Source: Hygrophila difformis
Lineage: Eukaryota > Streptophyta > Magnoliopsida > Lamiales > Acanthaceae
Reading direction: 5' to 3'
Assembly: GCA_030278955.1 (NCBI GenBank)
Contig: JAOANR010000014.1
Location: forward strand, 23,252,068-23,316,067
DNA length: 64,000 nt
In this document: one piece after another, positions 3,160-34,994 of the stretch
Layout of the letters: every line of letters starts with the position of its first letter
Numbering within the stretch: the stretch's first letter is position 1
The notes under the pieces: model-generated
What the model was told of the DNA's origin: nothing
The model's input: only the letters and a program-made list of their open reading frames with translations
Database searches by the model: none
Position numbers and translations under genes: made by a program

Positions 3160-3509
3160 TGTTGATATTTGGAGAAAATCTAATGCGTTGTATTTATCTG
3201 TCTTGCAGAAAGTTCGGAACCATCAAAAAGAGGAACAGTAAAGTAACACGGAAAACCAGGTTCTTGGTTGGATTAATCCCATGAATTTAAGAAAATATTT
3301 CCGGAAATTGAAGCAATTTAAATCCGGAATAATTTTTGCAAACAAATGGAATTAACCCAACCTAATTTATGCAAGTGGATCTTTCTTTAATTTCAGCCCA
3401 GTGTGTTTTGAATTTATTTGGACTGAATTTATTCAGGCCCAAATCAAATAAAATGAACTTATGCCCAACATCACATTCGGGCCCAGTTCACGAAAAATTT
3501 GAAAATTCA

Positions 3510-3810
3510 AAATTCGTGTCGTGGAACCAACCACTGTGTCGCGAAGAAATGCTCCGCGACCAGGCCTGGTCCCGCGACACAGTCGCACTTAGTACCCTTT
3601 CGATGTCGCGGAACATCTGTCGCGGTCCATGGGTCCGCGACCGGCTCTCCATTCCGCGACACCATTCCCCGTTGACTTTTCCATTCCAGAACTCGGTCGC
3701 GAAACTCCTGTCGCAGACCATGGCTCCGCGACCAGACTCAGATTCCGCGACTCGTGTAATGTCGCTATGCCCTGGTCGAGGAACCCTGTTCCGCGACACG
3801 ATCTGGTTTC
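3510..3810 (+). repeat. GTCGCGG palindrome cluster in X1
   Basis: Several imperfect dyads with a CCATGG-type centre, for example around 3619-3642 (GTCGCGGTCC-ATG-GGTCCGCGAC, one mismatch) and 3711-3736. They lie just upstream of the TATTTATA at 3829. They are CpG-rich and related to the arrays in both LTRs. Confidence 0.7.
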
Positions 3811-3983
3811 CGCGACTAGTGTTTTTAGTATTTATACCCCCCCCCCCCCACCTCATTTTCCTTGCACTCACGTCAGTTTCATCCAACCTCCATCTTTTCA
3901 TCTTCTCCTGTTCCCTCTTCTCTCTACCGAACGAACACCACCGTGTTCTTCGCACTCAATCACTCCTTTTTCAAGGGAAGACT

Positions 3984-5723
3984 ATGGACCGATTCTACAG
4001 GATCCTTCCAAATCTGGGACCTCTACCTAGGCCCGAACCATGGAGGGCAGGGTAGAAACCCATTCTTTCCCCCCCCCCCCCCCCGCGTTCATAACTCCCT
4101 CGGTTTTTCCTTGTTCCCTTGTCTGTATTGTGATTTGTGAAAAGCATAATGTGGTTTGTGTGCACTGGTTTTTCCTGTTCTTGAGGTTTTAAGTGTTCTC
4201 GGTTGCAAGCATTGTTTTGAGATCTTTTTGGATCTTTAAACAACCCATTTTCAAAACTGTCATGAGTAAAATTTTGGGAAGTTTAAAACTTGAAAGAATA
4301 AACTAATGAACATTGGGGTGTTGTTTTGAACACCATGATGTTGTTGGTTTCTCTATTCTTGAGTTTCAGGGTTGTGTGTTTTATTTTTGTTGAATTTTTG
4401 CTTCTGATTTTGAGTTAAGGTTTCTGTAGTGTAGGTTTGAGGCATTCGAGGTGGAAGATCTTTTGGCATACTTGCTTACATATCAGGGATCTCTTGGGGA
4501 ACAAATGTTTGTTTGTTTATGGAAACATAGTACAAACACCCAATGAGAAACTTCCACTTTTTAATAAAGGTGACCTTTTGGAAAAAGACAAAAATAGTTG
4601 ATAGGTTTTTAATTGACTTGTGTTCTTTTTATTCCCAATGGAACTGTAGTGTGAGTAAATAGCAGTATTTTCGTCACCCAACTGCTATTCTTTTCAGAAA
4701 TCCAAAATGGGACCACTCACATCCCACTTCTCCTAATAAATCAAGTCAACCCTTTAAAAATTAAAAAAGAGTGTTTGCAATTTTCGGATGTTTTCAACTG
4801 TCCAAAACAGTCCAGGCAGTCCAGAAATAGCAAATCCATTGTGCCACGCCTCCACTGCACATTCCTTAATTCGAGCATTTCACCCCATCCACCCATCTCT
4901 CACCATTTTCAACAAGTGCCTCGGATTTGTTTAATAATATTAAAAAATCAAAATTTTGGGTCCGATGGCCCATTAATAATATATAGGGGCCCAATGACCC
5001 CTATCTTTTCATAAAAAAATCTATTTTACCCATGCTTTAAATTAAAATTAAAGTCAGAAACTCAATAATCTCACATTTAGAGCAAAACTCTAAATGTGAG
5101 GATGTTGGTTTCTAAACTTGAATAATTTCCGAGAAATTATAAAAATTGGATTCATCCCTTCTTATCTTTTCAGGGAAAATCTTCCAATCCCAGACCCAGT
5201 GCCCGGAGGAACCCATCTGCTGGACCTCCCAGAGGAGCTCCTAGGTGAAATCCTCTCCCGAATAGGAGAGGATGAGATCAGGGAAGTGTTCACTGCTCAA
5301 GAAACATGCCGGAAGCTTAGAAACGCAGGAAACCTTGCCATCGTTTACAAGCGATGCGAGTTGGATACGGCTAGGGTGAGGCAGTGGCAGGGGAGGATAC
5401 GACAACAGAAAGAAAGATTTCTGAACACGTGCACTGAAGCTGGAAACTTCAACCTCAGAATTGTTCCAGCACTCCAAGCATTCACAGAAGGGGATGAAGA
5501 GCAAGCCTGCGAATGGCTACGGCCAGGCATCGAAGACAATCATAAAGCGTCAATCTTCACACGTGGACTGATGCTCATGAGCAAGCTAGATGAAGGCCAG
5601 GTCAATCAGGGGATCGCAATGATAGAAAGAATGGTGACCGATCGAGAGGTCCTGAACTACACGTCTACCAACACCCTCTCGTGGATGGCAGACAATCATG
5701 CCCCCTACCTGTTTGCAGGGTAA
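3984..5723 (+). CDS. F-box/Sel1-like protein, two predicted exons, carried by element 1
   Basis: Predicted join is 3984-4051 plus 5174-5723 (205 residues). Exon 1 has an ATG and 22 codons plus two bases. It ends at GG|GTAG, where an in-frame TAG at the donor would stop unspliced translation. Exon 2 starts after a pyrimidine-rich TTATCTTTTCAG at 5173, in matching phase. Its frame has no ATG before the internal MLMSK, so it needs an upstream exon. Exon 2 begins with an F-box (HLLDLPEELLGEILSRI, then CRKLR). A region like plant F-box proteins of the At2g35280 type follows (FLNTCTEAGN, ASIFTRGLMLMSK). F-box proteins normally bind SKP1 to recruit targets for ubiquitination. An in-frame TAA at 5721 is followed by about 35 open codons with a Cys-rich tail (CRRM, CLRC) to TGA at 5832, so the C-terminus looks cut off. 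The splice sites are inferred; the F-box family call is fairly firm. Confidence 0.65.
4052..5173 (+). other. Predicted intron of the element 1 F-box gene
   Basis: It begins GTAGAA (a modest donor) and ends CTTATCTTTTCAG. Exon 1 ends after two bases of a codon and exon 2 resumes with one base, so the frame is kept. The intron contains the second hairpin/purine module (5072-5102) about 70 bases before the acceptor. It has no long open frame and is homologous over most of its length to the predicted intron 26492-28027 of element 2. Confidence 0.5.
5072..5102 (+). promoter_or_regulatory. Hairpin plus purine tract before the payload exon
   Basis: Perfect 11-bp inverted repeat CACATTTAGAG (5072-5082) and CTCTAAATGTG (5088-5098) with a 5-nt loop, then AGGA and TGTTGG at 5103. 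It has the same layout as 3127-3159 and 27920-27950. It may be a second (central) polypurine tract or a splicing element; its function is unknown. Confidence 0.6.
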
Positions 5724-5835
5724 CCACCCCGAGTCTTCTGCAGAAGGATGCATGAACCCCTAAGAGACCACAATGGCTGGTGCCTGCGCTGTGATCTGAC
5801 CAGCTACGTCCACTGGCTCAGATACATGTTCTGAG

Positions 5836-7494
5836 AAAAGGAGGAAGAAGGAAAGAATCCTAGTATGCTCTAGTTCTTTTTAAGCCCTAGTATCGGCATC
5901 ATATAAGGGATTTCCTCTTTTGTATGCAGGTTCACACTAACTGCATAGGGATCCTTTGAAATTATTGTACTTTATCGCTTTCCACAAATTGAACTCAAGA
6001 TTGAGATCTGCAACAATCTTTATTTGCTTCCTTTGAAAAGATGTCTGACAGTCCAAGATGAATAAGCGACTGTCAGGCCAAAAATATGCTGTTGACATAC
6101 TCCGTATGTCAGCAGTGCCTCTTTACTGCTTTAAATCAAATAACCAGCAAAAATATGCATAAACCTGCTCTAAATTCACATGTTGAATTTAGGCTTATGA
6201 TTAAATTTTCAAACTTTTAAATTGGGATAATATAATTGAGAACATGCATGACATGAATTCCTAAGGTTTTGAGCTATAAAAATTTAATGATGCGATCAGC
6301 TTATTGGGTAATAAATCTGCATGTTAGAGATTCCAATTGAATAAATTGTTAGAATTAAGCTCTGATTAAATTTGAGAATATTGTATGACATGAATCAACC
6401 CAACCTTGTGAGATTTGAGCCATGAGTCACTTTTACTCATTTATTTTCTTTGATGTGTGAATCATTTTGATTAAAGGAAACTAGAACTTGCGATTGGGAC
6501 CGATTCAAGACCATGCCATATTCCCAAAATCGAGCGTATGATCGAGGCACTTAGAGAACCCAATTTTTGGCCTTCTTTTGAAATCCAAACCCAAAAATAT
6601 TCTCCCTTTAGGATTAACCAATTTGAGCCTTAAGCCTAATTTTTCTTTGAAGCCCCCTATATTATTCCTATCCTTACAAAAAGACCAAGAAATTCAAACC
6701 CAAGTGTGCAAGAATAAATTTTATCAAGGCATTACAATTTTTTATCATCATCAAAAATTTCAATCGGTATTCAAGAATCCGATCGAAAAAAAAAGTCGAG
6801 TTTCAATCGACAAAAATAAATTGCAAATGACAAAGCAAATTAGACATAGTCTAATGTCATGCAATAAGAAAAGAAAAGCAAAAGAAAGAAAAAGAAAAAT
6901 ATTGTTGATCATAAATTTTTAAATAAATGTGCCAAGTTATGATAGAATTAATTCCTGCCACTTCTTAACCCAATACTTCCCTTTCCTACCAGATGATACA
7001 ATCGTATGCCCCATTACAACCCTTAAATAAGACCTCATGATCTCGATTTGAGGAAATGAGCCGGTGGCGAGTTGGTCTGGTTGCAAGCTTATGGGATAAT
7101 TTAATTAAATTTGATTTTGAGCGTTCAACAATTAAACCCCAATTGAGAGTGAGTGAACTTTCCGATTCTCCTACATGTGAGGCTCTGTTTCATGAATTAT
7201 GTTATGTTCGTGTCATACCTTAATTCTGATTTTTAATCTTTGCATCTTTCAAACATAATATTCATGAAGGGTCGATAATAATGTTTGATTTGTAGGCCCG
7301 ATGTAGTGAGCAAGTATCGTTTCATTAAACACTGCAATCAAGGGAATTTAACACTTGTCGTTTTTGATTGTCCTATCCCAATCTAAAAAGAATGTGATTT
7401 ATGAAGCCACGAAAATGAATTGAATATGTAGAGTCCGTGTTCTTAGGAATATTGACTCTGACTGCTCGGGGACGATCAGTCTTAAATGTGAGGA
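5836..7494 (+). other. 3' untranslated region of element 1
   Basis: No convincing coding frame. From about 5895, and clearly from 6030, the sequence aligns with 32683-34244 of element 2 even though the coding sequences upstream are unrelated. The homology therefore resumes just after the F-box stop and marks the right edge of the exchanged payload. It is AT-rich, with A/G-rich runs near 6780-6910. Confidence 0.65.
7460..7494 (+). promoter_or_regulatory. Hairpin and polypurine tract before the 3' LTR of element 1
   Basis: Imperfect 8-bp stem, GACTGCTC (7460-7467) with GATCAGTC (7474-7481), then AAATGTGAGGA ending at 7494, directly before TGTTGATAATGG. The purine-rich end is the expected plus-strand primer site. 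The same block precedes the LTR at 34245. Confidence 0.7.
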
Positions 7495-7839
7495 TGTTGA
7501 TAATGGCCAGAAATGACCATTATTTTCAATCCATTTCCGTGTCTGAACGGGCATTTGATCGCATTCCGGTCTTATAATAAATAAGAAAGCAGTTGAATTG
7601 GACTGATTTATGCATAATTGTAAAAATATTGAGCTGGTATGAAAGATGCATAAATATGTAATTTTATTACATATTTATGTTAGAAAAATCCAAAAACATG
7701 AGAAAAAGAAAAGAAAAGAAAAAGGATACAAAAGATGGGCAAAAGAATAAACAAGCCCACAAAAATTCATAAAGATGGGAGAGATAGAAGAGCCCACAAA
7801 AAGAGCAACTTCGGCCCATCTGGCCCATTCAGCTCTGTC

Positions 7840-8165
7840 TGGAAACATCTGGTCGAGGAACCCCGGTCGAGGACCATGGTTCCGCGACACAGGAGAGATT
7901 CGCGACCCAGCATGCAACATGAAGAAGAGACCAGTCTGGGAACATCCGGTCGAGGAACCCTGGTCGAGGACCATGGTTCCGCGACACGAACACCTTGGAG
8001 GCCAAGCCACGCCCCAGTCGAGGAACCCCGGTCGCGGTCCATGCTTTAGCGACACGGACATGGATAGCGACAAAGACGCACCAATAGAGACACAAGACCC
8101 AGTCGAGAAGCCTTGCCACATGCAGCCCTGTCCCGCGACACAAAGGTGATTCCGCGACAAAGTTG
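7840..8165 (+). repeat. Palindrome array upstream of the LTR TATA box
   Basis: Repeated GTCGAGGA/TCCGCGAC units with CCATGG-type centres, for example near 7875-7898 and 7965-7988. The array ends about 70 bp before TATAAATA, a position fitting a promoter operator or insulator. The equivalent array in the other LTR is 34600-34935. Confidence 0.7.
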
Positions 8166-8232
8166 TGATGTGTGTGATGTCTTGAGACACAGTGGGCCTC
8201 AGATCAAGCCCATGGGCCTAGGGCTCCACTCC

Positions 8233-8240
8233 TATAAATA
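8233..8240 (+). promoter_or_regulatory. LTR TATA box (element 1)
   Basis: TATAAATA in the context CTCCTATAAATATG. It is conserved at 34995-35002 in the other LTR. It is the probable core promoter for the element RNA. Confidence 0.6.
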
Positions 8241-8859
8241 TGAGGAAACCCCCATGAGCTTAGGGTTAGAAATTCATTCTCTTGAAGACACAGTTGGAGA
8301 ATCCCTCTCTAGGTAGTTCTTAGTTTAGGTTTACTTTCATTTTTTTATATTATTTAATTTGAGCCATAGTGTAGCTTAGCTTAGTTTAGATTTATGTTAT
8401 TTTCTGTTTAAGAAGCATAGGTAGCCACTGTTCACAGTTTTATTTTTGTTGTTTAGCTTGCTTTTAGGGTTTGTATTACCCAAATGATGGGTACTAACAA
8501 ACTATTCAATAAATGGGAAAATATTCACCAAGTTGTGTCCCAAAATCATGAAATGGGTGCTATAAACCCATGGACTTTTACTGCTTTCCCTTTATTTGGG
8601 TCATTTGACCCCTATTGCTTTTTGTCTCTTATTTTTGGATATGTTGTATGCTTATGCGTGGTTGAACCCTAGATTAGGTTTTGCTTTATTTTAAATTCTG
8701 TTTTGAGTAGATTTAATCCTGTTCTAGCATGTTCTTGTAGATTTTTAAATTCTGTATGGTTAGTGTAGTTTAGAATAGCTTTTAATCCGAAATGGGGTGA
8801 GATCACACTGTCTGCATGCTACTGTTCAACTTTGCTTTTACTGACTTGGGTCCTGAACC

Positions 8860-9400
8860 ACCCATGTCGCTAACCGACTCCTGTCGCTAAGCCACGTTTG
8901 TCGACAGGAGGGTGTTCCGCGACATGGATGTCTAAGGACACTTGTCTTCATTATTTGAAAACATTTGGTTGCTAAACACCCTGTCGCGGACCCACGGTCC
9001 TCGACTCAACCATGCTTAGCGACCAGGAACCAAACTCTTGTTATTATTCTCTGCATGGCTCCTGTCGCGGAACACCCTTGTCGCGGACCCATGGTTCGCG
9101 ACTCAACTTTTATTCCGAAACAGGAAATTATGCCTTGCATTTTTATTTTGAAAGCCCCAGTCGCTAGACATCCTGTCGCGGAGCATGGCTCCGCGACACA
9201 ACTCCAGACTAGCGACTGGGAACCAAAACGCTTAGAAATTTCCAGAGCAATCTTGTGTCACTAAACACCTGTCGCGGACCCACGGTCCGCGACACAATCT
9301 TTGCTTAGTGACACGAGGTGAAACTCTGCCCAAATTTCTGTAAACCTGTCGAGGTACCCATGTCGCGGGTCTAGGCCCCTGACACAATTTATGGTATCTC
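8860..9400 (+). repeat. Second palindrome array in the element 1 LTR
   Basis: It contains two perfect 25-bp dyads with an 11-3-11 layout: TGTCGCGGAGC / GCTCCGCGACA at 9174-9198 and TGTCGCGGACC / GGTCCGCGACA at 9270-9294. Several imperfect ones surround them. It lies about 600-1150 bp downstream of the TATA box, so it would be within the transcribed LTR if the start site is at that box. Confidence 0.8.
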
Positions 9401-12006
9401 GACAGAATCCTCTTCTCTATTTAATCCTAAAATTCTGATCTTCTATCCTCCATTATATTGCAAAAACTCACATCTGAATCCCACGGATTAAGATGTAATA
9501 CCCTAGAATTGCAATATAAGGCGTTATGTTGCCAAAATTTTGATTCTCCATTCCCCACCTGTTAATTAATTGAACCCTCTAGTCATTAATGATTGATGAT
9601 TCTAATTAGCAATATTTAAATCACTAATTGTTGTGATTAGAGGACCTTTGTTCAATTGTCATTAAAACATTTTTCTATAAACAAAATCATGATGCCTTAA
9701 ACAGATAATCCGGACTGTAATTAATTATGGTAGGAGGGATTATTTAAGCCATCAACTATGGATTGATTCCATAACCTTGCATGAGAAACCAATGTCTCTC
9801 ATGCAAGTTCTTCTCTTTATTTCATTTTATTTTGTCTTTTGCGTGTTGTGTGCAACAATTAGTAAAGAATACATCAGACTAATGTTGGCGGGTATTCCCT
9901 CACGGATAACTAGCTCGTATTCTGGGTATTAGTTACTAAGTGTTATTTTGCATGGTCTGGATGGCAGTTAGTGGAAGCCTTGGCAGTTCGTCCATCCGGG
10001 ACTATAATAGCTGCTCAACTGATTCTCATCCAGATACAGTTTTATTTTATTTATCTTAACTTCCAAACCCAAATTCCAGTCTGCATCATAAATCTGCTAA
10101 TGTCTGTCAACTTTAGCTGATAAGTATTGCAGAAAGGAAGCATGTAGGTTTTTCTCTGAATTCACAGACAGTAGGGGCCCAACTGGTAGCGACTCTGCCA
10201 TTTTAGGGTTTCACCTGTCTAAATTCGCTTCATCCGAGTAATTGGGAAATCGGACAGTAGATGTTTACAGTCCACCCAATTATTCTGCCCTTATTTTGGT
10301 CTCCTGACCACATCATATCTGTGTTTCACTTTCTGTCTAGATCCGCCCCTATATTTTGGGTCAGTTAATTTTACACTTCCATATATCCTTATGCATGCTA
10401 TTATTATGTATTATTGTGGTCTAAACTATTTTGGGATCCTTCCCTTGGACAATAGAAGTCTATATCTCAAACAGATATTGCATATTAAATTTCCGATAAA
10501 AACTCCTTTATAAAATCCGGATCTGAGTAAGGGATAAATTCTTCAGTTATGACTAATTCACACTCTATCAAGGGTTGAATTTGGGAAATTAGAAGCAGAG
10601 TCAGCGATTAGGTCTCATCTAGACTGAAAGGATCTGTGTTTTAATTGAGAGTCTAGTACCTGTTTAGGGAATGGTTTTCAAATTCATTATTTTCCAAAAT
10701 TGCTGTTTGTTGGGAATCTAAGATTAAATATTACACCGAGATGGGGTCCACTTGGACTCAAATACAGTGCAGTAAATAACCTTAGAGGAATATCATCCAG
10801 GCCTTGGTTATTTTCTAAGATAGGGTTGAGTTTTCTTTCAACTGTTATCCTCTCCTGCCAAAGTCTATTTTTGAGTCCTGAGTGAGTGCATCCGGAACGA
10901 ACTAACTAGTTAGTTCGTTTCATTAGTTTGTATCTCATAACCACCCGGAAGGAAGTGAACGCATGAGTAGTTCACCAAGAGCCGGGAATTCTTGATCCAT
11001 ACCCCTTCATTCTGATGGGGAGCTGTCTTTTACTACCAGGGTCAGACCTTCAAAACCTCCGAGTGATAGGTTTTAAATGCTTTCTTTACTGTTTTCTTTA
11101 CTGCTTTCTTTAAATGCTTTCGATAGAGGTCACTCGGTTGTATTGGGAGTTGCGTAACTGTTACTAGGATTGATAGTTAAGGGATAGTTTAGGGCTTAAT
11201 TAGAATCTTCGGGTGTGACATGGGAGAATGATAGTAGTACTTGGCATTTCAATAAATGAATTGTCAGGTGTTGCTCAACCACCACAGATGAAGTAACATA
11301 CCCAGGCCAGGGCAGTTACAAGTCTGTGGTATCTTAGAGTTTGCGGTTTTAAGAACATGTAAACTCATACTGTAAGTACCTGTCTGTTAAAGGGAACGCA
11401 GTATTGAGAGCATGAGAATTAGCTATCTGATAGAATTATCCCAAACAAAGATCTGTGTATAAAAATGGAAGTTTAATACCGCCTTATCTAAATCTTGTCC
11501 AATTTTTATTCTTTCCTTCCTGTCCCTTCTGTCTACATTGTGATTCAGCTTCATAGCTAGCATGATGTAAATTTTCATTGCTTTTATAGATAGTATCTAT
11601 CGCATTCTTAAAATAATCTTTACCCGCTTTCTAGAATAGACTTATTTGCTTTGTAGAATAGATTTAAGTGCTTTCGTATTCTAATTTAAATTCATGTTAG
11701 TAGACGTTAACCACTTTTCAAACCAACTGGAGCAATACGAATGGAAAATCTAGTAAAACGACGTGGGCCCTGCTTCTATCGCACATCCTCCAGTGAACGA
11801 TCCGGTCTTACTATAAATTACTGCAATTTTTGACACCGTGTGCTTTCAGGCCACAGTTTCTTAACACGATTAATAAAAACGTGACAACCTATAAATATAT
11901 CCCTAATCCTAACTCCGCCTTCATAAAATGATTTTCATTAAATAAAATCAAGACCGGGGTTCTATTATTTCGAAAATACTCGTGTGGGAAATTGTCAAAA
12001 GTTTCA

Positions 12007-14213
12007 CTGCTCAGCTGACTCCTATCCGGATACAGTTTCCTTTTCTTTATCTTGTTCTCAAACCTGAATTTTGAGCTGTAATATTATCCAACAGTGTCGA
12101 TCAACACTGTTTGAATAGTACTACAGTAAGAAAATATGTAGGTTTTTCTCTCATTCCACAGATAGTAGAAGTCTTGATGATAGCGATCACTGTCACTTAA
12201 GATCTTCTGCTGTCTAAAATCATCTCACCTTAATGATTAGGGAACTGGACCACAGGTAACTGCAATCCAATTAACCCTAATTATTCTGTCATCTCTTTAG
12301 CCAAAATTCCTCCCACCTCCGGCTATTTCATCTCTGTGTTCCACATTCTGTCTAAACTCACCCTATATTTTGGGTTAATTTAATTTTACACTTCCTTATA
12401 AAATTATGCATGATATTATTATGTAAATATTGTGGTCTAATTATTCCGGGATCCTTCCCTTGGACGCATGAGTCTTGATTTTAATCAAATGTCTCACAAT
12501 AAATTTCAAACAAAAATTCATTTATAAAACCCGGATCTGAGTAAGGGATAAATTCCACAGTTATGACTAATTCACATTCTACCGGGGGTTAATTTTGGGA
12601 AACTAGAAGCAGAGTCAACGATTAGGTCTCATCTGGACTGAAAGGATCTGTGTTTTAAGTGAGAGTCTAGTACCTGTTTAGGGAATGGTTTTCAAATTCA
12701 TTATTTTCCAAAATTGTTGTATGTTGGGAATCTGATATTAAATGTTGCACTGAGATAGGGTCCACTTGGACTCAGATACGGTGTGATAGTTAATACTAGA
12801 GGAACAACATTCGGGCCTCGGTTATTTTCTGAGATAGGGGTTGAGTACTCTTTCAACTGCTATCCTCTTCTGCCAAAGCCTATTTTTGAGTCCTGAGTGA
12901 GTGCATCCGGAATAAACTAATTCATTAGTTCGTTTCATTAGTTTGTATCTCATAACCACCCGGAAGGAAGTGAACACTGCGAGCGGTTCACCGAGAGCCG
13001 GGAATTCTTGATCCACACCCAGTCATTCTGACTGGGGGCTTTCTTTTACTACCAGGGTCAAACTTTCAAAAACCTCCGAGTGATAGGATTTTAAATGCTT
13101 TCTTTATCGCTTTCTTTTAAAATGCTTTCGTTAGAAGTCACTCGGTTGTATTGAGAGTTGTGTAACTGCTACTAGGACTGAGAGTGAAGGGATAGTTCAG
13201 GCTTGATTAGAATCTTTGGGCGTGACATGGGGGAGTGATAGCAGTACTTGGCATCTCAATAAATGATTTGTTGGGTGTTGCTTGTCCACCGCAGGTGACT
13301 AACACATTCTTGCAAGGCATTGCAAGGGGAGTTATGAGTTTGTGGTATCTTAGATTTTGTTGACTTAAGAGCATGCAAATTCTGACTGTAAGTACCTGTC
13401 TGTTAAAGGGAACATAGTACAGAAAACATGAGAGTTAGCTAACTGAAAGGATTATCCCAAACAAAGATCTGTGTATTAAAATGGAAGTTTAATTGTGTCT
13501 CATCCGAATCTTGTCCAATTTTTATTATTTTCTTCCTGTCCCTTCTGTCTCCTTTTAAATCTGCTTTCTTAGAACAATTTATCGCTTTCTTAGAATAGTT
13601 CATTGCCTTCTTAGAGTAAATTTAATTCGCTTTCTAGAATAATTTTATCTGCTTTATTTTAATTACTTTCATAGCTTAGTTTAAAATTCCGTCAAGTAGT
13701 TGATAATCAAACACAAACTTGAATCGAGTAACCGAGTGGAAAATCTTAGTAAACGATGTGGGCCCTGCTTCTATCGCACATCCTCCAGTGAACGATCCGG
13801 TACTTACTATAAATACTTTTACTCCGTGCGCTTTCGGGGGCACAATTTCTTAACACGAGTAAATAAAAATGTGACAACCTATAAATATATCCCTAATCCC
13901 AACTCCGCCTTCATAAAGTGGTTTCATTAAATAAAATTAAAAACCGGGATTACTATTTTTCAGAAAATACTCATATAGTGGGAACTTGTCAAAAGTTTCA
14001 TGACAAGGATCTTCATGGCAGGAAATTGTCAAAAGTTTCATGCCGGGGAGTTCCACAGCGCCGTTTGAAATCAAAGTTTCCCACATGAGTAATAAAAAGT
14101 GGAATATATCCTTAAACCCCTTCCATGAATCATAACTCTTTTCATTTAATAAATTCAAACTTGATGTATTTTATAAAATATTCGTGTTAATGAAACTTGT
14201 CAAAAAAGTTTCA
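12007..14213 (+). repeat. 5' LTR of element 2, right half only
   Basis: It aligns to 36675-38886 with roughly 2% differences by eye, and ends CA at 14213 right before the primer-binding site. Its first base abuts the exact end of the element 1 LTR. The missing left part corresponds to 34245-36674 and should lie upstream of element 1. The last 230 bp contain three copies of a TTGTCAAAAGTTTCA-type terminus. Confidence 0.85.
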
Positions 14214-14231
14214 TGGCGCCATTACCGGGGA
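14214..14231 (+). promoter_or_regulatory. Primer-binding site of element 2
   Basis: TGGCGCCATTACCGGGGA begins right after the LTR end. It closely resembles the TGGCGCCGTTGCCGGGGA site known from Athila elements, thought to pair with tRNA-Asp. This fixes the 3' boundary of the LTR and supports the Athila assignment. Confidence 0.85.
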
Positions 14232-14371
14232 GGATGCAGCATCGTTTATTAAGAGAATTACACTCCTGATTACTCATAGCTAGTTAGTGTAGTTTCTTTA
14301 TTTATTTCAGAACAGAGAAGTACCCTCAAATCAATTAAACATTTAGAGCACTAAGACTCTAAATGTGAGGA
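14232..14371 (+). other. Shortened leader and junction module of element 2
   Basis: Only about 140 bp separate the primer-binding site from the next module. From about 14315 it aligns with the post-pol spacer near 3105-3159, so the deletion removed everything from the leader through pol. It holds a 10-bp hairpin (14339-14348 / 14357-14366) and a GAGGA tract before TGTTGA at 14372. Confidence 0.65.
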
Positions 14372-17806: not shown

Positions 17807-17809
17807 AGT

Positions 17810-18021: not shown

Positions 18022-18165
18022 TGAACTTAGAATCTTGGAAACTTGAATTTAGAATCTTGGCGAAACTTGAACTTAGCATCTTGGCGAAACTTGAACTTAG
18101 AATCTTGGAAACTCGAACCTAGAATCTTGGCGAATTGAACTTAGAATCTTGGTGAATATTAACTT
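18022..18165 (+). repeat. Short tandem repeats in the Tekay leader
   Basis: Six or seven imperfect copies of a roughly 22-24 bp unit around GAACTTAGAATCTTGGCGAA, just before the small leader ORF. The non-coding stretch 17822-18185 holds nothing else I recognise. Confidence 0.8.
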
Positions 18166-18185
18166 AGATCTCTTGCTTGCGCTAG

Positions 18186-18521: not shown

Positions 18522-18782
18522 AGATTCTATTGTTAGACATTGTTTTGCTAGAAAAATATTTCTACTTTTGTACTAAAATTTCTTTTGAGGAAATAAAATG
18601 GCCGATTTATTTATCTTTTAAAAATCGAAAGGGAAATTTTAAAATAAAACCCCGAAGCATACGATGCTTCTTAATTCGAACGAAGCACTACGTGCTAAAT
18701 TGCTACACACATATACCTTTATAGAAATTGCTTAGACTATATGTTAAATTCACCAGTCCTAATCTATCCTATTTGTACTAGA

Positions 18783-23129: not shown

Positions 23130-23513
23130 GGGAAGTTAAGTCCTCGATACATAGGACCTTACGAAATCCTAGAACGAGTCGGAACTCTAGCCTACCGATT
23201 GGCTTTACCGCCGCACTTAGATAGAGTTCACAACGTCTTCCATGTCTCGCAACTAAAGAAGTATGTGCCGGACCCGACACATGTACTTCAACCGGAGATA
23301 ATTGACCTAGACGAAGATTTGACTTATGAAGAAGTCCCAGTGCGTATTCTCGATACTAAGGAACGAGTAACGAGGAACAAAACCATCAAAATGATCAAGG
23401 TTCTTTGGTCAAACCACGAAAGTGAGACGGCAACTTGGGAAGTAGAATCCGATATGAGGGAACGATACCCGACATTGTTCCAAACCGATTCCGACACAGT
23501 TATGGGGACATAA
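23130..23513 (+). pseudogene. Cut-off C-terminal tail of the polyprotein (integrase end, chromodomain-like)
   Basis: It stays in the gag-pol frame after the TGA. It contains the usual LSPRYIGPYEIL and HNVFHVSQLKKY motifs and ends with a chromodomain-like segment (KVLWSNHESETATWEVE). This tail normally directs integration into chromatin. It is now separated from the rest by one stop codon and ends at TAA 23511-23513. Confidence 0.85.
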
Positions 23514-23742
23514 CTGCAATCTTAAGGGGGAGAGGATGTCATACCCCCTAATTTTTCGTGCATTTTTGTAAACTTTTGAACTACGTTATGGCTTGATCCC
23601 ATTACCGGGTACGTAGGCAGCTTAGAAGTTTTAATTCTAAGTTCAGTCACAACATAATAAAACAAACACAAGACCTTAGCACGAGACGAGAAAAGCCGAA
23701 ACACAACTTCGAGGACGAAGTTGATTCTTAAGGAGGGTAGAC
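23514..23742 (+). promoter_or_regulatory. 3' leader with two polypurine tracts
   Basis: The tract next to the LTR is AAGGAGGGTAGAC (23730-23742), right before TGTAATACCC. About 200 bp upstream, AAGGGGGAGAGGA is followed by TGTCATACCCCC (from 23524), which itself looks like a polypurine tract plus LTR start. The first is probably a relic or a second plus-strand primer. Confidence 0.65.
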
Positions 23743-26342
23743 TGTAATACCCGAGAATTTTCCAACATAAAATAAAACAATAATTAAATAAATAAATAAT
23801 AAATAAAATAAATACTATAAATAAATAAACAAATCCAGCAAATAAAAGAAATAAATAAAGATAAGGAAATGAGAAATGAGATTTTTACTTAGAAAAGAAT
23901 TAAAGGAATTTAATTCAGTAAAAGGATGGATAAATGGTACACCAAAACCCGACACTAATGAACTCGAGTATTCGAGTCCAAAACATCCAATTAGACTGAG
24001 AATAAGATTAGAGAGAAAGTATGAACCCGAATATACCCCGGAAATCGGAATTCGGGAGCATAGAGGGATAGAAACCCGAAAGAGAGGCGGAGAAGCACGA
24101 CGGATCGCACGACCCGCCCGGACCGAAGTCCAGGCGAAGTCGGCGCGGTGGCCGCGCGGTGAAGTGGCTTTAGCGCGCCACGACCGCGCCACCCCACAGA
24201 TTCGTTTGTTGCGTGAATCTCTCGCCCGAACGCGGATTTTTCGACTTTCGGTTGAACATCTCTCGACTCCGGACCTTTAGGTCGGTTGTGGATGCCCTAG
24301 GGATTAAGAATTCTATAAATAAGCCCCTTGGGAGCCCCAAACAAGTTTACAAAACCCTGCAATCTTCTATACGTTCGAAACCCTAAATTCGGAGTCGACG
24401 GAAAGCACCAAACGGAGGCAGCAGCTTTGGACGAAAATCCAAGGTCTCCAAACGTTGTGGTAAGCTCTAGTCCAATAAATCTTTTCACGTTTCAATCCGA
24501 AAACGGATTCTAACTTCGGTTCTTTTCTTTCTACACCCCGTATCGAATCTAGATCGTAGAACCCGACGAACGGAGAGGAGAAACGGTGATCTGGAAGCCA
24601 CGCCTCCGAACTAGACATTCCCGACGTTCATAGACACTGTAAGTTAACCTTACATGGTTTTGGGAGATTTTAAAACATTCGAAACCTAAAAGATTCAACA
24701 AGAACCATAAATCTGTCCACTTTTGCTTTCTACCGACGCAACAGATTTGGTGAATTTTTCCGACCCTTAAAACAAAATCAAACGGAAAAACTTAAAACAC
24801 GAAAAACGTTCCTAAGACTTAGACCTAGCTATTGTAAAAATTTGAGAATTTTTGGAGTTGATTTGATATGTGAAAACCCGTTGAAACCGAACTGTTTGAT
24901 TCTAGATCTTGAAATCTTGGACAGAACTTAGGAATGATCTTGATCACGTTTTTGGCATAGGATCTAGGCTGTTTTAGACCTTTGGCCGAACATGAAAGTT
25001 GTAGATAAATGTCTTAAGATGATCCCTGTCAAATTTCATTAAATTTTGAGTTGAATTGATATGGTAGAATTTGAAATCTTTGAACTGTGATGTATTAAAC
25101 TCGGACAGATTTCTTCTTATGCGAAAATTGGCGATTTTGACCTACTTAGGTATCTCGGATTGAAAAAGTTAAAACACGAAAGTTGTAGATCTTGATGTTT
25201 CCGAGTCAGATATGAAATTTTGGAATTTTTGGAATTAAATCTGATTTTAGACGAATTTTGGAGTAAACTGTGATTTACCGAAACGAAATCTTGAAATCTT
25301 GTTGAAACATGGAATTGACCTTTAGGGTTGAAACGAATCGAGATATTATTTCTAAATTAATACAATGGAAGGCAGATTTTAAAAACTAAATCCCCTTACA
25401 AACTTGATAAATTAAAATTAGGGGTGAGTGCTCTGCAGGGTGCCCCCTAACGATTCACTTCGTGCCGTAATGGACGATGGTGACCCCGCGCGCTAAATTT
25501 GAGATATGGATTGCCTAAACGGCGAAACTTAGAGCCTACACTCTCGTGAATATCCGTATGGGTTTCCCGAGGCTCCGGAGTGGTACTGGGTATGGCTGAT
25601 ACGGTTGCGGCCGCCGGGCTACCGGCTAAACTTGTGGACATCGCGATTTTATCGTGAAACTTTGAAATACCAAATCGGGAATGTAACGGGGATTCTAAAT
25701 TAAATTAAACTAGATTAAATGATATTGTTGTCCAATTAAATTATTTAAATGCTTTAGTTAAATTATGGCTTTTATGATTAAACCATGTGAGATGTGTTAT
25801 TAAATAGAGCCTGAGATAAATTATGCTATTGGATACTTGATTGGATTAAATTATATATTACGTTATTATAATGCTTTTGTTAAATTATTTAAATTTATGG
25901 CTTTTAAACCCTACGATCATGCATGTGTTAACTTACTCAGCAATTTTGCTGACCAAAACCATTTTTATTCCTTTCTTTACAGAATATGTGGAATGAGCAT
26001 GTGTGAGCACGCATCATGCATGGGATTTTGGCGATTGTTATTTTGCTTTTAAATTTCGTACTTAGACTATATTATGAACGGGCCTGTTTAACCCGTGTTT
26101 TGGCCATGTCGGCCCTTTTTATATTTTCCGCTGCGATACTGTACTAAACTAAATATTTCCGCTGCGCTATGCTATTATTATTTTCGAATTATATTGCATG
26201 GGCTATTTTGAATGCTTTAAATGTTTTAAATACTGCAATACCTAGCCTTGCATCTCTTTGGTAAGCTCGGAGAAACCGTGTCTAACTAGGGAGATGTGGC
26301 GGTGACATCCCGACCTGGGTGACCAAAAACCGGGGTGTTACA
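23743..26342 (+). repeat. 3' LTR of the Tekay-like element
   Basis: Same length (2600 bp) and termini as the 5' LTR. The differences I can see by eye number about eight, most in the last 600 bp. Confidence 0.95.
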
Positions 26343-27950
26343 CTTGCACATTCGAAAACCTCTTATTCCCGAAGAACACCACGTGTTCTTCGCACTCTCC
26401 GATCACCATCTCAGGCGAAACACCATCCATTTTTCGCGAAAAGCACAATGGAGCCCTCATCTTCTTCGTCCCCGAAGAAAGCCGAGCCATGGTAAGCATT
26501 TCTCCATCCAATTCTCGCACCCCTGTTCTCGCAATTTTAAGGAGTTTCGAGTTTTTGGTTGTGCGAATGCATGAGTAGAGGTCGCAATGTGTTTATCGCC
26601 TTGTTTTTAGTTTGATTTCGCGGATTATTTACTGTGAGCAGTGTTTATTAGAGGTTTTTGATTTGGGTGTTGGCCGATTATGATTAGGAGGAAGGGGTTG
26701 TTGTTTTTGCAATCTGGAAGTGTAGGGAAGTTCGTAATCTATTGGGCATTTGGAATTTTGAACTGAGGGCTGTTGGAGAACATAGTGCAGGATTGGGGGT
26801 GTATTAGGATTGTTTCCACCATCGTTGAGTTTTCAAGTTTTTTAGGATTCTTAGGGAATCCTTCTATTTTAGTCTAAATGTCCGGGTACTCTCTACTTGA
26901 TTTTGCTGAATCCCTCATGACTTTGGAATCTTGAACTCTGGAAGGCAAGGATTAATGAACACAGGGATACTATATGGGTGTTAATGTGTTGTTAGTACTC
27001 CTGTCTTTGGATTTCCTGCCCACTAAGCATGAATGTTGTGCCTGTTATTCTATTTCTGTGGTAATAAGCAGCAGTTTAGCAATATGCTCTTGTTAGTTTG
27101 AACTATGGTTTGAGAAGCATGATTGTTCTGATAGATAGGCAGCATGCCAATCTGTTTAAGTTTTGGTGGAGAGGATAGCATGATCTTGTGTTGATGTACT
27201 GTGTTCTTGTTTCTTGCATGCCAATGCAGGCATTAATTGCTTTTACCCTGTTCGGGCAACTTTGTTTGTTTATGTGGAAATCCTGGAAAGTTAGTGTATG
27301 GGTGTATGTGGAAGTTTCAGTGCACACCACACACTTTTCAGAAAAGGGATTTTCACAAAAAGACAAAATATGTTGGTGGAATAAAGTTTGACTTGGTGTT
27401 TTTTGTTCCCAATGGAACTACTAGTGTGAGTTAAAGTAGCAGTATTTTTGTCATATAAACTGCTATCCCTTTTCAAAAATCCAAACATGGGACCACACAC
27501 ATCCCACTTTTCATTAAATAAAACAAGTCAATCTTGAAAATTAAAAATAAAAATAGTGTTTGACGAATTTTGTGAGTGTTTCACTGTCCAAAGACAGTCC
27601 AAGCAATCCGGAATTAGCAGATCCATCCGCCACGTCTCCACTGCACATTCCAATTTCGAGCATCCGTCCCATTCGTCTCGTCTCATCCCATCTTCAACAA
27701 GTGCCTCGAACTTGTTTAATAAATCTGAGAAAAATCAAGTTTTTGGGCCCAATGGCCCATTAAGAGATTTTTGGTCCAATGACCATTTTATTTTCTCTTT
27801 TTGGACTAAAGAGTCCAAATCAAAAACATCCTTACGTCCAATGACCTCAATTTTAATATTGCAGCTATAAATAGTATTATGTATTCTTTGTAATAAAATT
27901 CAAGTTAAATCAACTGAATCACATTTCGAGCAAAGCTCAAAATGTGAGGA
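26343..27950 (+). other. Internal region X2, right part (leader exon and intron of element 2)
   Basis: Continues element 2 after the Tekay insertion. The AACACCACGTGTTCTTCGCACT block matches 3932-3953 of element 1. Exon 1 (26448-26491) is followed by about 1.5 kb homologous to 4052-5102. No other coding frame is convincing. Confidence 0.6.
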
Positions 27951-30900
27951 TGTTGACTTTCAACTTGAACAAATTCTTGAAAATTATAAAAAACTTGAAT
28001 ATCTCTGATCTTTTCTATCTTTCTCAGGAGTGAATTAGTGGTAAAGTCAGGCATCGGGTTGCTTGACTGCACATATAGAGATGCAGCTATTCAAGCATCA
28101 TCTGACCGGACTGAAATCAAGAACATGAGAGCGGCCATTGTCTCAGAATATAAAGTGCCGCTCGATCATACCACAGAGGATAAACTTGAGCTTGCACCAG
28201 GGTGGGATGTGAACATACCTCCGGAGGAGAGAACCATTGTAGCAGCATCCATAGAAAGAGACTATTATCACTTCCTAAAGAAATTTTGGGGAATGATGAT
28301 AGACCATGCCCCACAGGATGCACTCACAACTCCAGAAGTCCACCATGAACGCATCCAGCTACGATTCGGAGAACACAGAGCAATCTGGAACAGGCATGTG
28401 GAAAGAGGGACAAAAGAGCCACATCTAGCTGACTTCGATGTCATCATCCCAGTCCAAATCATAGACCCCCAAGTCAGAATGGCATTCACAGACAAGCAGA
28501 TCGATCTCAGCAGAATCCTCAAGAGCGGAAACATCATGATGCACGAAGCATTCCCATTCAAGTGGAACCCATATCTTTTTGAAAGAAGGGGACCGGTGGA
28601 GCAAAGATGGATCACAGATCAAGCCCGCATCAGGCACAGAGAATTGAGTTTGAACCTGTACAAGCACCTTAAAAGTGCTAAAAAGTTTGAGCAAGGCCGA
28701 AACACTTCACTACTGGAAACCATGAGAAAGATGATAACGGACGCACGGCAAGAATGGGAAGATCTGACTTTTTCATGGGGAAAAGGAAATCCGAGCATCA
28801 CTAAGTCTTTTCTGGATCCGGGAGTGGAACTGCCCGCTGAAGAAGTATTTGAATCTGTTTTTACACACAGAAAATATGGGCAATTTAAAACAACTAGGGA
28901 AGATGAGCTCCCTCGTCACATCGTTGTACTGAGAGAACAACTGCTGGTGGATATACACAAGGGAAGTTGGAAGCCTATAAGGAAAGGGGACAGACAGTTC
29001 AATATGATGTCTAAAGCTGAGGCAGGGACCTACCTCGACTACAACCAGGCACAGGACATGACTTATCTCGAAGGGATCCGAAAAGACCTGGTAGGGGCTA
29101 TGATAGACAAGTATCGGGAGGCCTACCTGGAACTGATCATGGAAATGGATAAAGAGGGACTCCGATACTGTAATGAGAAGTCAGAAAGGAAGAAAAAGAT
29201 TCTGCACTACAACCACAATGTCCGCAGCAAGTTCTGCAAAAGGATAAAGGACGATTGGGAAGTACAGCTAGAACACATCACTCAACGGAGCTTCGTGGAA
29301 GACTATTTGAAATACACTGAGAAGCTGCTGGGCTATGAGGGTAAGCCAGGCACTGAAGGAGATGCCGAAGAGGACCCAAACGCTTTCATTAATGCCTACA
29401 TCTTGACACCTCCTCCTGACGCCAACCCGCAGCCTACCCAACCAACAGTGCAAGCGTCTGCCTTGCCACCGAGGGAGCAGGCTGAAGCTCAGAAAACTGC
29501 TAACCCCGAGTCTGTGGTACAACAAGAAATAGTTCGGACTCCAATACAGCCAACTCAATCTGAAATGCCAACACCAGCAGTGGATAAACCTGCAGCACAA
29601 CCTGAACAGCCTGTACAGTCCAGACGACGGCTAGTTAAATCAGCTGAGAAAGAAAAGACGGCAAGGGCTCCGGAGAGACAAGTGGTGATCCAAGAGCCTA
29701 AGCTAACTGCCAAAAAGCCAGCAGCACTGTCAGATCCTAAAGATAGAGGCAAAGAAAAGATGCCACCACCACCTCCTAAACAGAAAGAACTGATTGCTCA
29801 AGATGCTGCACTGGCTAGAAAATTGCAGGAAGAAGAGAATGCCTTAGCCGGTCTGGGTGAACAAGAAAACGAAACAGGAGGTTCAGGGATGGACAAGATA
29901 CTTGAGGAAAAACGAGCAGAAAAAGAAAAGGAAACTAAGGAGGAAAGGAGAAAGAAAGAATTGCACGACAAGGAAATTGCTGAAAAACTCCAAGCGGAAC
30001 TGGAGACGAGGAAATCGAAAGAGGTGGAGAAAGAGAAAGGGAATGACGAAGAGTTGATGATCACAGGCGGAGTAGAGGGAACCGGGCTGAAAATTAAAGA
30101 AGAACAACCACCTGGTTGGACTGGCCCCACTGCACATGATGCTCAAACCATCCGGAAACATATTCGAGAAAGGCTGAATGATCAAATTGAAGCAAGGATC
30201 GATGCGGGAGAGGGGCAGGATCAGATCAGATATCAGACGGAAGTGTCTCAGCTCATTGATCCACTTGTAGGCACTGCCAGAATTGAAGCTGTAATTGGAA
30301 CTGTTGAAACATCTGCAAATCCAATTACGCTGTCAGAGCTGCTGAAAGGCAAGGCTGATGAACCACAGAAAAAAGATGAGCAAGCTTCTAGAAAGCTTGC
30401 GTCTGAGCTCGAATCCAAGGAGGGGGCTGGAACTGAAGCAACGGTGAAGAAACCACCACTTGAAAGATTCAAGAAAGTGAAACTTGAAAGAGAAGAGGAA
30501 GAAAAGAAGAAAAGGGCTAAGAAATCTGCCGAGCCTAAGAAAATCCAAGACATAGATGATGACGAGCTGCAAATATTGGAGGCAATGCCATCGTTAAAAC
30601 TTTCAGCTAGGGATGAGCCTCAGCTTTTTGCACATTTGACCCCGGAGGAGAAGTTGGATAAATTAAGGGAAATAAGTTTCTTAAGAAAGGATGACCCCCT
30701 TTGGCAGGAATACTTGGCTGAAAGGGAAAAATTTTTGAAAAACAAAGCAGCAGCCAATACAGAAGGCCCGTCGCACCAAGCGGAACAACCAGAAGGATCA
30801 TTGGATTCTGTCGATCCAGCAGCATTGGCTAACCGCTTGGAAGAACAGCCAGAAGAGCAACCAAGTGAACACCCTATGGCCTCTGCACTCAAGGAAAATG

Positions 30901-31625
30901 TCCGGAATATTGTGGCAGAAGCTGCAGCTGAAAACATATTAAGGGAGGAGGAGGAGGTATCAACTAGTGTTGATCCTTATTTTCCTGTTTTTAATTTTCC
31001 AAAGCCTGTAATGACTGAGTACAACAAAATGAATAATGTAATTAAACAGGTTGATGATGATTCTAAGAAAGAAGCAGCTGAGGAAAGAGGAGAACCAAGT
31101 CATGGGGAGCATGAGGCAGGATCCAGCAATGAACCTGCCCAAGGAAACCCAAGTGGGTCAACAGATTGGCACACGAGTGAAGACTTGGAGTCAATTGGGT
31201 CTGTTAGACCAATTGAATTTTGGTCTGAAAATACTATAAGGCACCGGATGGGAGTGACAAAGCAATATGAAAAGAAGAAACTGGACAAAGCAGACTTGGA
31301 GGTTAAATTCAATGGGCGCATGGAAGGGGCTGAACGATATGCAAAATTATTGAAGACGATCGTGCCAGATAAGGGATTCAGCCCAAAAGTCTTGCTTCAC
31401 CCCACAGTTGAAACATTCTACAGAAACCAAGAATGGGGGAACTTCATGTTGCACCATGAGGAAGATGGAATTGTTGAGCTAACGCGCGAATTCTTCTGCA
31501 ACATTGAAGCAAATCACAGAAGGACTTGGATCCGGGGTCATGTTATCAACATCTCACCCAAATGGTTGAATACATTCTTCGAGACCCGGATATCCGAGAC
31601 GAATTCGCCGAAGGAGAAATTCTGA
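26448..31625 (+). CDS. Giant 3' gene of element 2, predicted exons 1 and 2
   Basis: Predicted join is 26448-26491 plus 28028-31625. Exon 1 starts at ATG (MEPSSSSSPKKAEP) and ends CCATG|GTAAGC, a strong donor; an in-frame TAA sits at the donor if unspliced. Exon 2 follows TTTCTATCTTTCTCAG at 28027 in matching phase, and its frame is open from the acceptor with no ATG until 28125. Exon 2 residues 1-420 (counted from 28038) are an unrecognised helical region with many W, K and D residues. Residues 430-1000 are low-complexity P/E/K-rich coiled coil (KILEEKRAEKEKETKEERRKK). Residues 1100 onward (VETFYRNQEWGNF, WIRGHV) resemble the 'putative plant transposon protein' domain (PF20167-like) found in Athila-type elements. 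It sits where some Athila elements carry an env-like gene. The frame breaks at about 31583 and continues in another frame. Confidence 0.65.
26492..28027 (+). other. Predicted intron of the element 2 3' gene
   Basis: It begins GTAAGC and ends TTTCTCAG. The phase (two bases, then one) is the same as in the element 1 intron 4052-5173, and the intron sequences are homologous. It includes the hairpin/purine module 27920-27950 about 80 bases before the acceptor. Confidence 0.6.
27920..27950 (+). promoter_or_regulatory. Hairpin plus purine tract before the payload exon of element 2
   Basis: Arms CACATTTCGAGC (27920-27931) and GCTCAAAATGTG (27935-27946), 3-nt loop, one mismatch, then AGGA and TGTTGA at 27951. 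Compared with 5072-5098, both arms have changed while most pairing is kept. Confidence 0.6.
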
Positions 31626-32647
31626 TGAAGACAGGGAAGACCAAGAAAGCTGCATTGTATTCAGCTATAGCGAACAGTATGACAAGGGTACCCGCTTCGG
31701 ACCATACTTTCGATACAAACTGGTTGAAACTGCACTTCATGCCGACCTATGAGTTTTACATGTCGAAAATCCGGCCCAACTCGCACCCACACACGACATC
31801 TGGAAGCGTTCTTATAGGACTCGCAAAGTTGTGGCATGGAGTGAAGCTAAACGTAGGGAGGCATGTCTTTGAAGTTCTGACGACCCGGATAGAAGACAAG
31901 CAGGTCTTTTGCTATCCAAATTTGATCCGAAGAATCTGCATAAGCCAGGGCGTCGATTTAAGTGCGTTTGCAACCGATGAGCTAGTGAAGATAAACCCTC
32001 CCATCAGCGTGCCGAATCTCCGCTTGCGTGAAAGGATTACATATGCACTACCTCAACTACCCGGTGAAGGCAATTCCGATGCCCAATCTTCGTTCATATC
32101 CGGTGGTCAAGCACCTTCCACAAGCAAGAGAATCAGGTCATCTAGGGCCAATAAGGGAACAAAGAAAGCCCGTACTGATGCGGGACCTTCAACTGCAGTA
32201 CAAGAAGAGCACCAGCAGGAACATACGGAAATACCACCTCCACCCCCAGCTCAACCTCCACCTCATCCAGTCCAAGTCCCACCTGCAAGTCAGAATGTCT
32301 CACAGCATCCGGCTGACTCCCTTGTGGTGGAACTTGTGAGCAGCATGAACAAGACAGTCACAGACAGCATAAGGACGCTGGCAGACACAGTGATTTTGGG
32401 AAAGGAGGATGAAAGGAGGGAAAGAACCGCAGAGATAGCCGAACAGAGGAGGCGAGATGAAGAGTTCAGAAAGCTGCTAGTGGACAGAGAAGAGCGCATG
32501 CATAGAGAGAGACTGGAAAGTGAAGAGAGGCAACGGAAGATGATGGAATTTGTACTGTCTGCACTTGTTAAACAACTTCCACAGCCACCAGCTCCACCAA
32601 AAGATGATGTTGGCCCTTCCAATCAACCCCAGGATCCAACTGAATAA
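31526..32647 (+). pseudogene. Frameshifted C-terminal part of the giant 3' protein
   Basis: This frame overlaps the end of the first frame by about 100 bp. From about 31580 it carries the expected continuation of the PF20167-like domain (RDPDIRDEFAEGE, then WLKLHFMPT, FCYPNLIRRICISQGV). A proline-rich stretch (PPPPPAQPPPHP) and a charged coiled coil (RERLESEERQRKMMEF) follow, with TAA at 32645-32647. The switch is -1 relative to the first frame, most simply a one-base deletion near TTCTTCGAGACC (31575-31586). No heptameric slippery site is visible, so programmed frameshifting is unlikely. Confidence 0.7.
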
Positions 32648-34935: not shown

Positions 34936-34994
34936 TTGTGATGTCTTGCGACACGGGCCTCAGATCAAGGCCCATGGGCCTAGGGTTTTACCTC

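Follow-up and report, generated by a model that had tools for sequence, protein, structure and literature searches.

An Athila-like retroelement family of Hygrophila difformis with an internal gene whose last exon appears to be exchangeable

A 64,000-nucleotide stretch of the Hygrophila difformis genome (C6:23252068-23316067; genome size 915 Mb), hereafter called the window, carries two related long terminal repeat (LTR) retroelements, elements 1 and 2, which end in different 3' genes. Our analysis of the window and of further genomic copies suggests, with a probability that we put at about 0.82, that they represent an Athila-like Ty3/gypsy family with a small internal gene between pol and the 3' LTR, the last exon of which can be exchanged. 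This gene would begin with CpG-rich boxes and a TATA-like site, followed by a leader free of ATGs and a short ATG exon that ends in phase 2; after these would come an intron, in whose tail stand a box resembling a polypurine tract (PPT) and a strong acceptor, then a terminal exon (the payload) and a shared 3' untranslated region (3'UTR). At least three times, intron tail and payload would have been newly combined, the payload being either an F-box/TPR_27 protein or a PF20167-type protein, and the acceptor would mark the break. Directly seen in the DNA are the architecture, the phase, the copy family, a discordant tree, the breakpoints, low ratios of non-synonymous to synonymous change (dN/dS), and one chimaeric F-box copy. 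We consider the architecture and the repeated exchange at the acceptor well supported by the sequences compared.

Architecture and copies of the internal gene

Downstream of pol, element 1 contains PPT-like box (i), a CGCGAC stretch, the TATA-like site, the ATG exon, the intron with PPT-like box (ii), the F-box exon, the 3'UTR, the PPT proper or box (iii), and the LTR, in this order (Table 1). Element 1 is homologous to element 2 in the post-pol region, along the 3' half of the intron up to the acceptor, and again in the 3'UTR from about 170 bases past the F-box stop. A first-pass annotation of the window had proposed that each element joins a short ATG exon to a downstream frame by a phase-keeping splice, and its coordinates, phases and splice sites proved correct for both: exons 1 stop two bases into a codon at a GT, and the joins restore the frame, at 5174 after TTTTCAG and at 28028 after CTCAG. 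By approximate scoring, with matrices from general knowledge and the 3,747 AG and 2,951 GT sites of the window as background, both acceptors rank in the top 0.4% of AG sites and donor 26491 in the top 0.5% of GT sites. The homology claimed for the introns holds for their 3' halves (4555-5010 with 27332-27795, 76%; 5032-5171 with 27883-28015, 74%), while the 5' halves give no alignment. Likewise, the in-frame stop at the donor is present but provides no independent evidence, since a phase-2 GTAA or GTAG automatically yields TAA or TAG, and the Glu-Pro-Trp motif at the donor occurs in both window elements but is not constant, many F-box copies having Glu-Pro-Arg. The 3'UTRs are homologous as stated (5897-7494 and 32686-34244, 88% identical). 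This value exceeds the identity of the LTRs between the two elements (72-80%) in a region with no shared long open reading frame (ORF), for which constraint or recombination may be responsible.

The box (ii) pattern has 1,805 exact matches genome-wide, against none for the reversed control pattern, and the box (ii) family is therefore not a product of chance. The F-box exon gave 2,231 first-look candidates in the genome, of which the 40 scored ones are 93-100% identical. Copies were collected as rows in four samples: 8 places picked by F-box similarity (L001-L008), 30 picked by similarity to the element 2 intron (L009-L038), 30 box-(ii) places on C1 taken by position order (L039-L068), and 20 more C1 places picked for unusual box variants (L069-L088); two of these rows, L001 and L009, repeat copies of the window itself. 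Payloads derived from the F-box class follow in 28 of the 30 position-ordered places (L044 being cut short and L061 degraded) and PF20167-type payloads in the other 2. The 20 unusual variants comprise 14 PF20167-type and 5 F-box copies and one that the script left unclassified. For the 30 intron-chosen places, a stricter script classified 19, every one as PF20167-type, and a looser script read 24, all with a PF20167-type start.

The first-pass annotation had named further copies with conserved donor and acceptor phase, together with the genes that follow them, as its own check, and this check came out positive. With the acceptor after box (ii) picked by script through the longest open frame in any phase, the phase-2 payload frame was the longest in 62 of 64 readable rows (70 examined, 6 without a readable acceptor); both exceptions are F-box copies with early lesions. 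Exon 1 with an intact phase-2 GTA donor is present in 56 of the 61 rows that have at least 1,400 upstream bases (the GT is lost in one, and no exon was found in four). Over all 81 rows, 60 are intact, one is lost and 20 were not found, these being mostly pieces that are too short. Three exon-1 types were recognized: MDR..LGP.PRPEP in the F-box copies of intron clade II, M[EA]..SSS..PW in the PF20167-type copies of clade II plus L070, and MASSSSNP in both payload classes within clade I.

Table 1. Features of elements 1 and 2, in window positions
Feature	Position	Strand	Remarks
Element 1 pol, 3' part (RT, RNase H, integrase)	2..3025	+	frame open to pol end; element enters window inside pol
Element 1 box (i)	3149..3167	+	PPT-like AAATGTGAGGA plus TGTTGATA, as at 3' LTR junction; 3' arm of stable stem-loop
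Strong acceptor-like site	3190..3208	+	identical 19 bases in element 2; possible genomic-RNA splice acceptor
CpG-rich CGCGAC/GTCGCG boxes upstream of internal gene	3520..3820	+	CpG observed/expected 1.35; LTR has similar boxes
TATA-like TATTTATA	3829..3836	+	155 nt before exon-1 ATG, element 1
Element 1 pyrimidine-rich ATG-free leader	3845..3983	+	
Element 1 coding exon 1	3984..4051	+	68 nt; phase-2 GT donor at end
Element 1 intron	4052..5173	+	3' half homologous to element 2
Element 1 box (ii), second PPT-like box	5092..5108	+	about 70 nt before acceptor; 3' arm of stable stem-loop
Element 1 payload exon, F-box/TPR_27 protein	5174..5723	+	early stop in window copy
Element 1 3'UTR	5724..7494	+	homologous to element 2 from about 5890
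Element 1 3' LTR	7495..12006	+	final ~210 bases missing
Element 2 5' LTR, 5'-truncated	12007..14213	+	98.5% identical to its 3' LTR over 2,204 sites
Element 2 primer-binding-site-like sequence	14214..14231	+	directly after LTR
Element 2 stretch homologous to element 1 post-pol region	14303..15205	+	no gag-pol before
Nested Ty3/gypsy element in element 2 leader	15207..26342	+	outside the gene; target duplication CTCGC/CTTGC
Element 2 coding exon 1	26448..26491	+	44 nt; phase-2 GT donor at end
Element 2 intron	26492..28027	+	box (ii) at 27940-27956
Element 2 payload	28028..32647	+	large; N-terminal conserved domain of ~450 residues and PF20167-like C-terminal part; frame change near 31600
Element 2 3'UTR	32648..34244	+	
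Element 2 3' LTR	34245..38886	+	

Exchange of payloads at the acceptor

The phylogeny of the intron tail is discordant with the payloads. The tree, built from the last 600 bases up to the acceptor in 56 of the 77 classified rows (55 without the long row L070), shows two deep intron clades, each of which holds both payload classes. The 55-row tree requires three payload changes, and none of 200 bootstrap trees gets by with a single change; within intron clade I (13 rows), two changes are required. A single old replacement followed by vertical descent, with no repeated exchange, would agree with the clustering of payload class on the intron tree (3 changes, where shuffling gave about 17 on average). 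This explanation is nevertheless very unlikely, because one F-box clade is rejected by the approximately unbiased (AU) test, with p 1.5e-20 over the 55 rows and 0.0086 in clade I, and because F-box copies L054 and L063 share both the MASSSSNP type of exon 1 and the intron with the PF20167-type copy L083.

The breakpoint was located by pairwise comparison. F-box copy L063 and PF20167-type copy L078 agree at 89% of the last 85 intron bases and at 83% of the last 400, and their payloads are 40% identical against 42% for shuffled sequence; two more such pairs gave payload values of 37% against 41% and 42% against 36%. On the other side of the payload, 13 of the 41 classified F-box copies, including four of clade I, were compared, and in all 13 the 3'UTR is homologous to those of both window elements. 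Additionally, L056 is a chimaera of two F-box subclasses: with parents picked by eye, 193 of the 201 informative sites are accounted for by a single break, a fit that none of 2,000 permutations equalled. Together, the tree discordance, the breaks at the acceptor, the homologous 3'UTR and L056 argue for recombination between element RNAs, most simply by template switching, and co-packaged RNAs would be the most likely partners. The notion of a retroelement family with a swappable 3' gene, put forward in the first-pass annotation, thus gains support from the discordant tree and from homology that ends at the acceptor.

The payloads could also be passengers or simple nested insertions of unrelated genes, and plant LTR elements that capture host genes are indeed known, such as Bs1 (PMC13317346; published elements are cited here and below from excerpts of the papers). 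We hold this for improbable in the extreme. As passengers, the payloads would hardly show dN/dS well below 1, family sequence at both edges and a single phase in 62/64 readable rows; nested insertion, which had been named as grounds for abandoning the proposal, fits poorly with a family intron on the left and a family 3'UTR on the right in 13/13 F-box copies.

Payload proteins, selection and origin

The two payload classes were assigned by profile matches. The element 1 payload matches TPR_27 (PF23310) at E 3.6e-8, above cut-off, and F-box at E 0.003, below the Pfam cut-off. TPR_27 is also above cut-off in L039 and L054 and just below in L063 (26.5 vs 27); the F-box domain exceeds its cut-off in L054 (21.9 vs 20.5) and stays below it in window element 1, L039 and L063. 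The element 2 payload matches PF20167 at E 5.9e-4 and 3.5e-5, both below cut-off and split across two frames, and for its N-terminal domain (28029-29400, ~450 residues) the best PDB match has E 0.51 and the best Pfam match E 0.03, below cut-off. Both window copies are damaged: the F-box frame ends after 182 exon-2 codons, against a run of at least 215 in 24 of the 33 other F-box rows read, and the element 2 frame is interrupted near 31600, while many other copies are open. A second intron at this frame change was considered and rejected, as the ~160 bases available for ~41 profile positions are too short for a usual plant intron. A protein search with the spliced F-box product returned 215 candidates, none at E 1e-3, and neither pol nor the PPT box nor the PF20167 part led to a relative in viral contigs.

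The payloads are unrelated, as the first-pass annotation had stated, with no DNA or translated similarity above noise; homology of the two was rejected, their alignment being at the level of shuffled sequence. It is often the case that extra ORFs within one lineage are too diverged for comparison (PMC6317226), and the two classes might accordingly be imagined as a single fast-evolving protein family. We give this idea next to no credence, as the classes match different Pfam families, show no similarity above noise, and each remain recognisable across large distances: the PF20167-type N-terminal domain at 27% identity, and F-box classes with box (ii) at 50-73%.

Both payloads look to be under selection. 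The comparison of synonymous and non-synonymous change across copies, also envisaged at the outset, gave dN/dS medians of 0.1-0.3; specifically, NG86 medians by dS class are 0.12-0.30 for the F-box payload (24 long open frames; 275/276 pairs binned) and 0.10-0.27 for the PF20167-type payload (11 frames; 43/55 pairs binned, those of the unbinned pairs that are shown being saturated), where the lowest-dS classes, with the highest medians, have 3 pairs each and pairs are not independent.

The F-box exon was probably first captured from a spliced host mRNA, because it lacks the introns present in one host-type gene: L110 has introns at TPR_27 position 36/37 and in the F-box region, and the payload is continuous through both. 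TPR_27 gave 5,039 first-look candidates in the genome, and the 150 listed are mostly frames of ~260 residues. One such frame, L109 (C11:18057700-18058600), encodes an F-box/TPR_27 protein 31% identical to the window class; its exon apparently follows a phase-2 acceptor, and the short stretch that was read showed no box (ii).

Internal promoter and PPT-like boxes

A putative internal promoter ahead of exon 1 is added here to the earlier proposal, because TATA-like sites and ATG-free leaders precede this exon. The ATG-free run upstream of the exon-1 ATG has a median of 212 nt in 49 distinct rows (two are short, 67 and 154), and only 2.8% of 1,378 intron ATG gaps used as control reach 195. A TATA-like word lies 120-190 nt before the ATG in 29/30 F-box rows and 10/21 other rows, against 45/811 intron windows. 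L048, L049, L050 and L052 combine a differing promoter region with the same exon 1 type, and L048 suggests that the promoter has been exchanged too. Upstream of exon 1, L048 has CTACGACGC boxes and CACCTATAAATA; boxes and TATA are shown for this row only.

In a retroviral-style scheme, the LTR promoter would instead supply a genomic RNA from which the 3' gene is expressed after joining of a 5' donor to the conserved acceptor at 3209/14423, and removal of the 4052-5173 intron would be a second splice. This acceptor scores in the top 0.4%, the 19 bases to its AG are identical in both elements, and a spliced env-like mRNA is reported for Bagy2 (PMC7264820). We think the scheme unlikely all the same, since element 1 has 11 ATGs and element 2 has 7 between this acceptor and exon 1, and since the final ~200 nt before exon 1 are ATG-free in copies, often with a TATA-like word, which fits a start site near exon 1.

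Motif GTGAGGATG occurs six times on the + strand of the window and never on the - strand, these six being boxes (i), (ii) and (iii) of both elements. The internal boxes retain the bases of the LTR start. All four internal boxes sit at the 3' arm of a stem-loop, and in each case the fold is better than that of any of 200 shuffled sequences (z -3.5 to -6.3); neither terminal PPT has such a stem-loop (z -0.7 and 0.4).

Several points weigh against an internally promoted gene with an exchangeable last exon. Donor 4051 of element 1 is weak (top 12% of the 2,951 GT sites), and the TATA-like word is absent from 11/21 PF20167-type or unclassified rows, element 2 included. Promoter use and splicing are likely, as judged from sequence. 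Because the copies are related, they do not give independent counts of phase; the exon-1 motifs and TATA words were selected once the rows had been inspected, and the exon-1 count is descriptive and no test. For the tree, the clade I subset was picked after viewing it, and the 55-row bootstrap has not settled. The dN/dS values come from long open copies only, and the host comparison relies on one partial gene (L110), intronless host relatives being possible. Had the upstream module been traded instead, the discordance would look no different, so that the exchange seen at the acceptor may have moved either side; in clade II, moreover, exon 1 and promoter also differ between the payload lines, so that more than the last exon may have been exchanged there.

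Layout of the two elements

The pol of element 1, which we take to resemble that of the Athila lineage, has profile matches to RVT_1 (residues 184-340), RNase H (404-531) and integrase (636-805), and by this order element 1 is a Ty3/gypsy element. The 1,008 residues available to the pol end gave no chromodomain match, which excludes chromoviruses, and pol residues 532-624 gave no match to a second RNase H, which excludes Ogre/Retand (criterion of PMC6317226). Both elements are therefore classified as Ty3/gypsy and, by exclusion, as Athila-like.

Element 2 passes from LTR and primer-binding-like site directly to the 3' region, without gag-pol. About 16 of the 18 bases of this site agree with what we take to be the end of tRNA-Asp. 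Homology to element 1 begins at 14303, which corresponds to ~60 bases past the element 1 pol stop. Near the junction of primer-binding site and post-pol region (14214-14311), a strong acceptor-like CAG has its last base at 14310, so that element 2 may go back to a spliced genomic RNA or to one with a deletion. At 7495-14213, the end-less 3' LTR of element 1 abuts the 5'-truncated LTR of element 2, and the stretch contains a 2-kb tandem of ~79% identity. The nested element has gag, protease, RT and integrase matches and is young, with LTRs 99.7% identical; one copy of its CTCGC target duplication is now CTTGC. L010, a near-identical copy, has the same leader minus the nested element and thus represents the empty site.

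L002 and L010 lie ~123-136 kb downstream on C6 and repeat a near-identical F-box exon (99%) and the element 2 intron (100%) in the same order, at a spacing ~12.6 kb shorter than that of their window counterparts, which suggests a segmental duplication predating the nested insertion. Elsewhere in the window, a tandem repeat with a period of ~177 bases occupies 48460-49377, and an open frame at 44557-45219 (-) with similarity to AAA_33 and, more weakly, to a zeta-toxin-like kinase is perhaps a host gene.

Relation to known elements

Several components of this arrangement are already known separately: spliced env-like ORFs, extra PPTs, Athila 3' ORFs of PF20167 type, heterogeneous extra ORFs (eORFs), host capture, and internally promoted accessory genes. 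The env-like ORFs of Athila4, Calypso and Bagy2 lie, as here, between pol and the 3' LTR in sense orientation, with splicing predicted or reported (PMC2829016, PMC7264820), and Athila4 and Calypso have an extra PPT in the linker (PMC2829016). Unlike them, as far as they are described in these excerpts, the present family possesses a short ATG exon, an intron, a TATA-like site and a leader of its own, carries two additional PPT-like boxes, and shows exchange of its terminal exon for an F-box protein. Diaspora, a soybean relative of Athila and Calypso, has a PPT 128 bp after the pol stop (PMC1142308), comparable to box (i) at ~120 bases; in the excerpted description it is without a 3' gene, whereas here a whole gene follows. 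A sense ORF at the 3' end of sunflower Athila (aORF) has partial similarity to Transposase_32 (PF20167) (PMC11728184), to which the below-cut-off matches of the element 2 payload may correspond; that ORF has 487 aa, whereas the payload here has well over 1,000 residues and an extra conserved N-terminal domain, behind a conserved intron.

Other systems are more distant. Gene23 of Grande is a 3' accessory gene with its own promoter in antisense orientation (PMC7264820), whereas the gene here is in sense and has an intron. The linker of Sireviruses (Ty1/copia) has multiple PPTs, and repeated CpG-rich boxes occur in their LTRs as well as where their env-like gene begins at its 5' end (PMC2829016); these belong to an unrelated superfamily, and their upstream PPTs are said there to be without stem-loops, whereas the internal boxes here keep LTR-start bases and sit on stem-loops. 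Maize Bs1 and an orchid Ty3/gypsy element with an RNA demethylase ORF have kept host-derived coding sequence (PMC13317346, PMC9289625); an exchangeable exon behind a conserved acceptor, as present here, is not described in those excerpts. Among open-licence papers, judged by titles and the starts of abstracts, none was seen to describe F-box payloads in plant LTR elements or an exchange at a single conserved acceptor.

A survey of plant LTR elements assigned the eORFs of one lineage to many unrelated groups, suggested fast evolution or independent acquisition, and asked whether these heterogeneous ORFs in env position function at all (PMC6317226). Beyond what its excerpts describe, a concrete route is visible here, namely exchange at one splice acceptor in one phase. 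More tentatively, and with the odds somewhat against it, the promoter, first exon, phase-2 acceptor and PPT-like flanks may form a dedicated exon socket for trading accessory proteins during reverse transcription, with an F-box effector (perhaps degrading a silencing factor) and the PF20167-type protein as alternative cartridges of one replicating pool. It is speculative that the F-box protein recruits an SCF ligase against a host silencing factor, by analogy with polerovirus P0 (PMC6593998 and others).

A fixed one-phase acceptor and traded proteins that look to be under selection would offer a simple, testable mechanism for the heterogeneity of eORFs. The family keeps an F-box gene, whose product is a candidate factor against silencing, at low dN/dS and in very large copy number, and element cargo may be present among the annotated plant F-box genes of the F-box/TPR_27 kind.

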